A stretch of DNA of 64,000 nucleotides from contig NZ_CP080572.1 in the NCBI RefSeq assembly GCF_023746595.1, forward strand, positions 310,001 to 374,000, read 5' to 3'. Positions within the stretch are counted from its first letter, which is position 1; each line of letters begins with the position of its first letter. The stretch comes from Thermococcus argininiproducens. Lineage in GTDB: Archaea; Methanobacteriota_B; Thermococci; Thermococcales; Thermococcaceae. Of the stretch, positions 2,893 through 64,000 are shown one piece after another. The notes under the pieces are model-generated. The model was not told where the DNA came from and searched no databases. It worked only from the letters and a program-made list of their open reading frames with translations. The translations under genes were made by a program, and so were the position numbers.

Positions 2893-3216
2893 GTGAGGGG
2901 GCTGGGGCTGTCGGGTAGTAAGCCTGAGGAAGTTCCGCCCACCTCACCGGGGCCGCGGTGTCGTAAGGCACCTCCCGAAAGGGAGGGCAACGGCGCAGAA
3001 ACGACACGTCCCCTCAAATAGGAGGATGAAAGCGGTGAAGGTCTTCGGCAACGAAGACCGAGCTAACCCGCAGACGATTTGAGGGGGAACGGTGAAACGG
3101 CCGTCCCGCGGGGTGCAAGGCCAAGCTAGGGACGATGAATTCCCGGTGGGAGTCCCGTGGTGGGCCGCTTAGTCGAATGCCCCATTTTTACAGAAGGCGG
3201 GCTATAGCTCCCTCAC
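2893..3216 (+). ncRNA. rnpB: RNase P RNA (archaeal type A)
   Basis: Catalytic RNA that removes 5' leaders from pre-tRNAs. The universally conserved core blocks are visible: GAGGAAGTTCCGCCCACC (CR-I region) near the 5' end, GCAGAAACGACACG in the middle, and ACAGAAGGCGGGCTATAG (CR-V) near the 3' end. The ends form an 11-bp P1 helix, 2893-2903 with 3206-3216, with one G.U pair. The 324-nt length fits Thermococcales. It is much richer in G+C than its flanks, as expected for structural RNA of a hyperthermophile. Its 3' end overlaps the stop codon of the convergent EamA gene. Confidence 0.96.
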
Positions 3217-13369: not shown

Positions 13370-13488
13370 TCAAGTTTTGAGCTTCTTATACTTGTGAGAG
13401 CGTATTCCGTAAAGTTTGCCCGCAAAGTGGCTGATTATCGTGGTTAAGTCTTCAATTAGCTCCTCCTTTGGAGCTTTTGCCTTCTTGT
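13370..13488 (-). pseudogene. tnpA: C-terminal fragment of IS607-type serine recombinase TnpA
   Basis: Minus-strand codons read [18 protein letters not shown] then [21 protein letters not shown] and a TGA at 13372-13370. This matches the tail of IS607 TnpA resolvases, which end in a conserved PxEELxEDLxxIIxxFxxxLYGxRSxKYKK pattern. The catalytic serine domain and HTH are absent; the reading frame closes just beyond the 12-base direct repeat. It lies 28 bases before tnpB, as in complete IS607 elements. Confidence 0.8.
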
Positions 13489-13500
13489 TCAGCCCGTGGG
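13489..13500. repeat. Direct repeat flanking the IS607-like element, left-end copy
   Basis: Identical to 12063-12074 in the same orientation, 1,426 bases away. On the minus strand it contributes most of the second guide and the D box of the C/D sRNA-like sequence. IS607-family insertion normally gives no target duplication, so the origin of the repeat is unclear. Confidence 0.75.
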
Positions 13501-13544
13501 CGTCTCATCATCGCATTCCTCAGTGGAGGTGCTTTCTCCTCATC
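13489..13544 (-). ncRNA. Candidate box C/D sRNA adjoining the IS607-like element
   Basis: Minus-strand order: C box ATGAGGA (13543-13537, one mismatch to RUGAUGA), 13-nt guide, D' box CTGA (13523-13520), 8-nt spacer, perfect C' box ATGATGA (13511-13505), 12-nt guide, D box CTGA (13492-13489). Guide lengths are typical of archaeal methylation guides; the spacer is long. A TATA-like TTATAT lies about 25 bases upstream, after the methyltransferase stop. The distal guide plus D box (13489-13500) recurs at the other end of the IS element. No rRNA target was assigned. Confidence 0.5.
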
Positions 13545-13578
13545 TGCTTTCTCAATTTAAAAATCCCCTAATATAAGC

Positions 13579-61263: not shown

Positions 61264-61404
61264 GGGGGCGTGGTGTAGCCTGGTCTATCATCGCGGGCTC
61301 CAGAGGTGTGAAGACGAGCGGGTTTGCTGATTTGGGGATGAGCCTTTGGAGCTCTGACCCGGAGAAACCCGCGGACCGGGGTTCAAATCCCCGCGCCCCC
61401 ACCA
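61264..61404 (+). tRNA. trnW: tRNA-Trp(CCA) with intron carrying box C/D guide
   Basis: Acceptor stem GGGGGCG (61264-61270) pairs with CGCCCCC (61394-61400); CCA is encoded (61402-61404). The anticodon stem GCGGG/CCCGC and anticodon CCA at 61300-61302 identify tryptophan; the T-arm is CGGGG-TTCAAAT-CCCCG. A 63-nt intron (about 61304-61366) interrupts positions 37/38. It is a known type of archaeal intron that works as a box C/D guide on its own pre-tRNA. Confidence 0.96.
61304..61366 (+). ncRNA. Box C/D methylation guide within the tRNA-Trp intron
   Basis: C-like GTGAAGA (61308-61314), D' CTGA (61327-61330), C'-like GATGAGC (61337-61343) and D CTGA (61354-61357). The guide before D' contains GCGGGTTT, complementary to AAACCCGC at the intron/exon 2 junction; the guide before D contains TGGAGC, complementary to GCTCCA around the anticodon. 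This is the arrangement described for Haloferax and Pyrococcus, directing 2'-O-methylation of positions 39 and 34. Confidence 0.88.
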
Positions 61405-61443: not shown

Positions 61444-61505
61444 GGGGCTCATACAATTCCTCGCATCATCATAAAATCAGAAAGGAGAACGGTAATCATC
61501 GCCCC
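61444..61505 (-). ncRNA. Candidate box C/D sRNA in the lrp 3' flank
   Basis: A 62-nt minus-strand sequence beginning six bases after the Lrp stop codon. Order: stem GGGGC, G, C-like box ATGATTA (61499-61493), 12-nt guide, D' CTGA (61480-61477), 4-nt spacer, C' ATGATGA (61472-61466), 13-nt guide, D-like box ATGA (61452-61449), stem GCCCC. The 5-bp terminal stem and all spacings fit archaeal C/D sRNAs; the two terminal boxes each differ from consensus by one base. The guide before D could pair with the conserved 23S segment AAUUCCUUGU (inference). Confidence 0.7.
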
Positions 61506-61511
61506 GAAAAT

Positions 61512-61964
61512 TCAGAGCTCTTCTTTAACTGTTACAAACGAAACCATTGTTACGGTCTGCCCTACTCCTTTAACCTCTCTAAGTTTGTCAACGACAACTT
61601 TTCCTATCTCCTCAGCTGAGGGTGCCCTAATCTTTATTAAGAGATCCCATTCACCAGCAATTATGTGAACTTCATGAACTCCTTCAATCTGTGCAATTTT
61701 TTTAGCCACTTCTCTTTGAGAAAGTCCAAATTCCGGGTCATACCTAGCTAAGATAAATGCTGTAGTCCCCAAGTTAAGCTTTTTGTAATTAGGTTTGATT
61801 GTGAATTTTTCTATAATTCCTTCGTTAATGAGTTTCTTAATTCTATAATGCACAGTCGTCCTTGGAATTCCAAGTTTTTTACTTAGAGTAGCGATGTTTT
61901 CCCTTGAGTTCTCTTTAAGCTCTTTAAGCAGTTTTAAATCCACAGCATCAATTGCATCACTCAT
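61512..61964 (-). CDS. Lrp/AsnC-family transcriptional regulator
   Basis: A 150-residue feast/famine regulator. The N-terminal winged HTH (VDLKLLKELKENSRENIATL, LGIPRTTVHYRIKKLINEG) is joined to a C-terminal RAM ligand-binding domain (EVHIIAGEWDLLIKIRAPSA). The effector, usually an amino acid, is unknown. ATG 61964 (MSDAIDAVDLKLL) follows GGGGGAT; upstream in-frame starts are unsupported. A C/D sRNA candidate follows directly in the 3' flank. Confidence 0.9.
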   Translation of the reverse strand: MSDAIDAVDLKLLKELKENSRENIATLSKKLGIPRTTVHYRIKKLINEGIIEKFTIKPNYKKLNLGTTAFILARYDPEFGLSQREVAKKIAQIEGVHEVHIIAGEWDLLIKIRAPSAEEIGKVVVDKLREVKGVGQTVTMVSFVTVKEEL

Positions 61965-62020
61965 CCAAATCCCCCACATAATTGTCATATTTCCAACAAA
62001 TTACCGATAGGTATTGTCAA

Positions 62021-63207: not shown

Positions 63208-64000
63208 CTACCCCACTCTTTTGGGGGCTTCCTGCTTCATCGGGAAGACTTGCCCCGTGACGACAGCCTGATAAGGCACGACACGGGGTAGAGGTCTTCC
63301 CTCCACAGGCAATCCAGGTCGTCCCAACCCTTCATCCAAGCCCTTCTTTAGAATATTGAACGAAGCGTTCAAATCCCTGTCCAGCTCAACCCCGCACTTC
63401 GGGCACGCGAAAACTCTATCAGAAAGCTTCAACTTCTCAACGACGAAACCACAGCGGGAGCAAGTCCTTGAAGTGTAGGCTGACTTGATGAAAACAACCC
63501 TCCGACCGGCTCTCCCAGCCTTGTCGGAAAGTATCTTAACGAACTCCTTCAAAGCCGAATCCAGAAAACGGCGTCTAAAACTCCGGGAAGAGTTGTTCTC
63601 CACGATGTTTTTAGCGCCCAAATCCTCAAGAACGATAATATCATAATTCCTTACATAATAGAGGGCAAGCTTGTGGAGGAAGTCCCTCCTCTGATTGTAG
63701 AGCTTTTCATAAGCTTTAGCCAGCTTTACCCTCGCCTTCTCCCAGTTCTTTGAACCCTTTTGCTTCTTTGAAAGTTGCCTCTGGAGTTTCTTAATCCTCT
63801 CAAGGGACTTCTCCAAGAAGAGCGGGTTTTCGAAGGCGTTCCCGTCGCTGTCCACGGCGAAGTGTTTAACTCCAAGGTCTATTCCCACGGCCCTTCCAGT
63901 TTTTGGAAGCGGTTCCGGTTCCTCCTCAACTTGAAAGATTGCGTACCACTTTCCGCTTCTCGTCCTCTTAATGATGACGCCCTTTACTTTCCCCTTAATC
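63208..64000 (-). CDS. tnpB: TnpB (OrfB) RNA-guided nuclease, 5' end beyond window
   Basis: The frame is open to the right edge, giving at least 264 residues; the first visible codons read IKGKVKGVIIKRTRSGKWY, so the GTG at 63888 is internal, not a start. The RuvC active site is complete: Asp in GIDLGVKHFAVD, Glu in IIVLEDLGAKN, Asp in CGVELDRDLNASFNIL. The zinc finger is CSRCGFVVEKL...CPKCGVEL. Only distantly similar to the IS607-type TnpB of this window. No frameshift is seen, so it may be active if the missing part is intact. Confidence 0.92.
   Translation of the reverse strand, partial: IKGKVKGVIIKRTRSGKWYAIFQVEEEPEPLPKTGRAVGIDLGVKHFAVDSDGNAFENPLFLEKSLERIKKLQRQLSKKQKGSKNWEKARVKLAKAYEKLYNQRRDFLHKLALYYVRNYDIIVLEDLGAKNIVENNSSRSFRRRFLDSALKEFVKILSDKAGRAGRRVVFIKSAYTSRTCSRCGFVVEKLKLSDRVFACPKCGVELDRDLNASFNILKKGLDEGLGRPGLPVEGRPLPRVVPYQAVVTGQVFPMKQEAPKRVG
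63242..63301 (-). ncRNA. Hairpin in tnpB 3' coding end (omegaRNA-like scaffold)
   Basis: An 8-bp outer stem (GGGAAGAC 63242-63249 with GTCTTCCC 63294-63301) and a 9-bp inner stem (TGCCCCGTG 63251-63259 with CACGGGGTA 63282-63290, one wobble) enclose a further small stem. This lies in the last 30 codons of tnpB, where guide RNAs of TnpB are made. Pairing is visible; the RNA role is inference. Confidence 0.5.

Follow-up and report, generated by a model that had tools for sequence, protein, structure and literature searches.

The window, by which we mean the whole 64-kb stretch of DNA that was analysed, carries on its minus strand a gene for an lrp/AsnC-family regulator and, directly behind it, a small structured element (Table 1). 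The lrp stop codon TGA ends at 61512, six bases ahead of position 61505, which agrees with the spacing and shared strand given in the preliminary description. Upstream of lrp, rdgB is encoded on the same strand. A tRNA-Trp gene with an intron (61264–61401, plus strand) is convergent with the element and ends 43 bases from it. This gene was missed by ARAGORN; its intron carries C/D boxes that match Rfam sR3 (38.6 bits) and sR40 (24.8 bits), both under threshold. Elsewhere in the window we observed an archaeal RNase P RNA (2893–3216, plus strand), a known C/D sRNA (Rfam sR43; 13487–13547, minus strand) and an ORF (63208–63888, minus strand) that, as read from its translation only, resembles the C-terminal part of TnpB-type proteins (IDLGVKHFA... 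CSRCG... CPKCG). A sigma-70-type promoter scan was discarded as inapplicable to archaea.

Table 1. Parts of the sRNA gene and the adjoining lrp gene, in window coordinates
Feature	Position	Strand	Remarks
Box C/D sRNA body, about 62 nt	61444–61505	-	Covariance-model score 79.5 bits; sole strong match in its own genome
Terminal stem, 5' strand, GGGGC	61501–61505	-	Paired with 61444–61448; inner three pairs invariant, outer two covary
Box C, AUGAUUA, position 6 = U	61493–61499	-	AUGAUYN in 77/77 distinct sequences, AUGAUGA in 0
D' guide, CCGUUCUCCUUU, 12 nt	61481–61492	-	Core CGUUCUCCUU invariant; 11 bp to 23S 2660–2670
Box D', CUGA	61477–61480	-	Invariant
Box C', AUGAUGA	61466–61472	-	RUGAUGA throughout
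D guide, UGCGAGGAAUUGU, 13 nt	61453–61465	-	Core GCGAGG in most sequences
Box D, AUGA, position 1 = A	61449–61452	-	Covariation with box C position 6
Terminal stem, 3' strand, GCCCC	61444–61448	-	Stem covariation analysis
lrp/AsnC-family regulator gene, immediately upstream	61512–61988	-	Probable host transcript; PDB and NCBIfam matches to Lrp/AsnC regulators

Read from 61505, the minus strand has the order GGGGC-G-AUGAUUA-CCGUUCUCCUUU-CUGA-UUUU-AUGAUGA-UGCGAGGAAUUGU-AUGA-GCCCC, where UUUU is the spacer between boxes D' and C'. Stem, boxes, guides and spacer, as previously described, are all present in this arrangement. The interval is almost certainly a double-guide box C/D sRNA gene. Its C' and D' boxes conform to RUGAUGA and CUGA in all sequences, the k-turn core consists of tandem G.A pairs, a U.U pair and a Watson–Crick pair between box C position 6 and box D position 1 (C6-D1; U-A in the window), with GA/GA and U.U invariant, and the terminal stem, made up of invariant and covarying pairs, abuts this k-turn. 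Guide lengths lie in the range of about 10–13 nt (D' guide 12 nt in 48/48 sequences, D guide 11–13 nt in 47/48), and the D' guide is complementary to rRNA over the nucleotide marked by the +5 rule (23S 2660–2670, 11–12 bp with one or two G.U pairs). In one relative (locus L237, genome G109) the D guide has just 4 nt (AGCA) and the D' guide is intact, as though the D side had been deleted.

The strict consensus of RUGAUGA for box C and CUGA for box D does not apply to this gene: AUGAUUA and AUGA are each one base off, and the terminal boxes of the relatives read AUGAUYN with A/G/CUGA. This letter consensus is the usual sign of a box C/D sRNA and not its structural definition; the underlying structure holds. 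No Rfam family reached its gathering threshold (best score in the window 20.8 bits for sR1, threshold 45; best score in relatives 30.9 bits), and matches at a lax threshold were rejected as cross-matches through the boxes only. The folding energy of the single sequence is unremarkable (z = -0.74), as expected of a k-turn RNA. A search for the C/D architecture with a 4/4 stem found it once in the 64-kb window and in none of 40 simulated 64-kb windows (order-2 Markov), with a pattern that was drawn up post hoc and left box C positions 6–7 and box D position 1 free. Since the pattern was written after the candidate had been seen, conservation is the stronger test.

Of 94 Thermococcaceae genomes, 88 contain the sRNA with a score of 60 bits or higher by a covariance model built on 47 sequences, and none of the 21 genomes from elsewhere in the class does. 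With blastn it was found in 34 of the 61 genomes searched; further copies, including that of the presumed P. furiosus, were located by reading behind the lrp orthologue. Stem and boxes are kept in the relatives and 35 alignment columns are invariant, among them the 10-nt core of the D' guide, which is what the preliminary description had expected of a genuine sRNA. Whole-structure covariation amounts to 0.349, a value reached by 0 of 500 shuffles, for which it is 0.179. The off-consensus terminal boxes would suit a chance resemblance or a decayed pseudogene, but conservation, covariation and the lack of matches in simulated windows make this explanation hardly conceivable. The assignment to the box C/D class made beforehand is borne out by the same conservation and covariation.

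The six Thermococcaceae genomes without the sRNA are four drafts (G004, G094, G098, G108) and two single-contig genomes. In the complete genome G029 (Pyrococcus group), no trace of the sRNA was found in the space behind lrp. In G066 (complete, Thermococcus group), it ends abruptly after GGGGCGATGAT (L242, G066:C1:1078300 onward), and the sequence beyond is unrelated and codes for large proteins predicted to be membrane-bound or secreted, a break that reads as an insertion or rearrangement within the sRNA gene. Gone in one genome and broken in the other, the sRNA is dispensable.

In box C/D k-turns, position 6 of box C pairs with position 1 of box D (the 4b:4n pair). Across 77 distinct sequences of the family this pair is U-A in 34, C-G in 33, U.C in nine and U.G in one, and in the 47 aligned sequences it is U-A in 26, C-G in 18 and unpaired U.C in three; G-C occurs in neither set. 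Every relative departs from the box C consensus and almost every one from that of box D, and the changes come together. The two terminal boxes, formerly described as one base off, are therefore not degenerate, since positions C6 and D1 covary as a Watson–Crick pair. In archaeal box C/D k-turns, 4b:4n is strongly conserved as G:C (PMC5689011). Among 22 other circular RNAs of T. kodakarensis that were inspected, it is G:C in 21 and U:C in one, with boxes read by script and consensus boxes favoured where several placements were possible. Because the pair is U-A or C-G and never G-C here, in contrast to G:C elsewhere, the family, as judged from its aligned sequences, holds a lasting swap of the 4b:4n pair. 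The sRNA was probably overlooked because the swapped base pair disguises both end boxes.

The pair -1b:-1n is C:G in all sequences of the family. According to published k-turn exchange rules, C:G at both -1b:-1n and 4b:4n favours folding in Mg2+ alone (PMC5689011), and the terminal k-turns with C:G pairs are predicted to fold in this way. A different exchange was observed in the T. kodakarensis RNAs sR28, sR31, sR38 and sR41 (L164, L166, L169, L170), in which a C box ATGACGA is combined with a D box CCGA, so that both bases of 3b:3n are changed together, from U.U to C.C.

In every relative in which the flank was read, the sRNA lies directly 3' of the same lrp orthologue and on the same strand, sometimes within a few bases. 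This position makes it likely that the sRNA is released from lrp transcripts by cutting or trimming, in line with the processing from lrp mRNA proposed earlier. The same position would also be expected if the element were a k-turn of the lrp 3' UTR, bound by L7Ae and controlling the lrp mRNA without any guide function; L7Ae has been proposed to regulate archaeal mRNAs (PMC5539422). Such a role accounts neither for the constancy of the D' guide, the C'/D' boxes and the 12-nt spacing nor for the existence of a separate 61-nt RNA that yields circular reads, and we regard it as very improbable.

This RNA is the orthologue in genome G036, which we take to be T. kodakarensis KOD1, as published circRNA junctions fall on C/D-like RNAs there. 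On this presumed identity, the 61-nt orthologue corresponds exactly to the circRNA junctions 1894519–1894579 (PMC9014305, Table 1). The RNA, listed as 'TK2109', is represented by 14,240 small-RNA reads; circular reads in small RNA fall from 28 in the wild type to 0 when the ligase is knocked out, and in total RNA from 857 to 4 (PMC9014305). RT-PCR failed to confirm the circular form, though reads did (PMC9014305). The study lists no transcription start for this RNA (PMC9014305); this agrees with, but does not prove, its release from the lrp transcript.

The better-conserved guide is the D' guide, whose 10-nt core is identical in 77/77 sequences. In rRNA it matches best to 23S AAAGGGGAACG at 2660–2670, with 11 bp including one G.U pair and the +5 nucleotide at G2664. 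Across the sequences, 11–12 contiguous base pairs with one or two G.U pairs are formed (-15.3 kcal/mol for the window's own guide), and the target sequence shows no variation among the 19 23S genes of the family in which it was found. With U2552 as the anchor, alignment to an actual 23S gene of E. coli equates G2664 with E. coli 2568 and C2594 with C2498. The D' score was matched somewhere in rRNA by 43 of 1000 composition-matched shuffles, and since 4.3% of shuffles do as well, the match alone is modest and only suggestive. A weaker match, with three G.U pairs, exists in RNase P RNA; tRNAs (30 of 45 tRNA genes) and RNase P RNA were rejected as targets, giving nothing better than 23S for the guides. 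We consider it likely that the D' guide targets G2664 for methylation. The preliminary description had offered a target for the D guide only and none for this one, which has the best rRNA match.

That D-guide target was the 23S segment AAUUCCUUGU, with predicted methylation of U2044 (E. coli U1939). It is indeed the longest D-guide match in the window genome (10 bp, guide positions 3–12, -12.4 kcal/mol) and also forms in L006–L008 and L010, yet it includes two G.U pairs and is barely better than the 6-bp match to CCUCGC (-11.8 kcal/mol). The match is not conserved: it is broken in L011 and even in the close relatives L004/L005 (GCGAGGATTTTT), and its register or pairing is mostly lost where the spacing from core to box D is 4 nt (66/88 loci). 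The 23S segment AAATTCCTTGTCGG is invariant in the 18 genes in which it was found, yet the guide match is not kept. Methylation of U2044 is thus improbable.

The GCGAGG core of the D guide points elsewhere, to a site that lends support to the D' match. Its sole exact complement in 16S and 23S rRNA is CCUCGC at 23S 2594–2599, in the peptidyl transferase loop and 70 nt from the D' site. The 4-nt spacing was counted over 88 loci from 83 genomes, five of them counted twice; the window lineage has 6 nt. With 4 nt, the +5 rule marks C2594, but pairing reaches 7–8 bp at best with positions 1–3 unpaired, which leaves methylation of C2594 uncertain. The register of the window is shifted by two and gives 6 bp at 2594–2599 with a mismatch beside the +5 nucleotide. 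In other lineages the D guide differs: AGUAGCAAGAA, the T. litoralis-type guide, matches best at 23S 2587–2594, and the guide of L023 (on a contig shared with L110, Thermococcus sp. JdFR-02) at 2602–2611. The guides beginning with GCGAGGUU and the guides AGUAGCAAGAA and AGAAGAGUCGAA, all three unrelated, match well within the 26-nt stretch 2586–2611, in most cases better than anywhere else in rRNA. Shuffles reached the respective score within 100 nt of G2664 in 112–1370 of 5000 cases for the GCGAGGUU variants, and in 18 and 2 of 5000 for the AGUAGCAAGAA and AGAAGAGUCGAA guides. As three unrelated D guides match there, one stretch of the loop appears to be targeted, and the balance leans towards the peptidyl transferase loop as the D-guide target across the family. 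For the window genome the D-guide target is deduced from complementarity, and D-guided methylation is doubtful. The D' guide of sR31, GAGTAGCAAGCATT (L166, presumed T. kodakarensis), pairs with 23S 2586–2594, the stretch of the T. litoralis-type D guide AGTAGCAAGAA of the present family, two bases off register.

The D guide might instead act here as an anchor or chaperone, with GCGAGG holding CCUCGC while the D' guide methylates and no methyl group is added on the D side. A chaperone role has been proposed for double guides (PMC4644070), the core is conserved while the D-proximal bases drift, and the only CCTCGC of both rRNAs lies near the D' site. Against this, 6–8 bp are perhaps too short for specificity, guides may simply lose function, and longer matches to the same region exist in other lineages. 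We give the anchoring role a little less than an even chance; it refines rather than opposes the methylation-guide reading. A more far-reaching model, in which the k-turn is Kt-7-like and folds without L7Ae, the D guide methylates the C2498 equivalent in most species and the site slides along the loop elsewhere, appears unlikely.

Taken together, computed conservation, covariation, gene position and guide complementarity are best explained by a double-guide box C/D sRNA directing 2'-O-methylation of 23S rRNA, to which we assign a probability of roughly 0.85. The sRNA would be cut or trimmed from the lrp transcript. Boxes C and D would form a terminal k-turn in which the 4b:4n pair is U-A or C-G in place of G-C, and C'/D' an internal k-loop. 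With L7Ae, Nop5 and fibrillarin bound, the RNP would direct methylation near the peptidyl transferase centre, the D' guide pairing with the 3' strand of helix 90 and marking G2664, and the D guide, family-wide, pairing some 70 nt further upstream, in the peptidyl transferase loop. The sRNA would bracket the helix 90–92 (A-loop) domain and may also be a folding helper around these helices.

If correct, this adds a near-universal guide RNA of Thermococcaceae that strict box searches and Rfam have missed, and identifies an RNA that had been sequenced but assigned to a protein gene. Screens that require RUGAUGA...CUGA overlook sRNAs with a flipped C6-D1 pair. The family would provide natural tests of the published k-turn folding rules and of an RNA guide marking a 23S nucleotide that is marked by a protein enzyme in E. 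coli. Literature searches on the guide sequence and on Gm2568 or Cm2498 in Pyrococcus returned nothing relevant, and Pyrococcus sRNA lists given only in supplements may contain the sRNA. As far as these searches show, the family is new as described, with 23S methylation guidance as its most likely function.

Compared to archaeal double-guide box C/D sRNAs (the Pyrococcus sR series; T. kodakarensis sR01–sR61), the family shares size, C/D and C'/D' boxes, 12-nt guides, the terminal stem, the position 3' of an ORF, 23S targets within 100 nt of each other and, in the T. kodakarensis orthologue, circular reads. It differs in scoring below the gathering threshold of every Rfam family and in its 4b:4n pair, which is U-A or C-G and never G-C. 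The circRNA 'TK2109' is the same RNA as the orthologue; the original study notes C/D box sRNA homology for its circRNAs, filed this one under the protein-coding gene TK2109 (lipoyl synthase) and gives it in the main text without a C/D name, guides, target or family (PMC9014305). In E. coli, C2498 is methylated by RlmM (PMC11542601), and C2594, the +5 nucleotide of the D guide in most family species, is its equivalent; RlmM is a protein enzyme, whereas the RNA-guided methylation is predicted here from 7–8 bp, outside the register of the window. Kt-7-type ribosomal k-turns (PMC5689011) resemble the sRNA in the universal C:G pair at -1b:-1n and in C:G at 4b:4n in the presumed T. kodakarensis, P. 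abyssi and P. furiosus. The sRNA has U.U at 3b:3n as in box C/D k-turns, and the likeness in folding to Kt-7 is a prediction.
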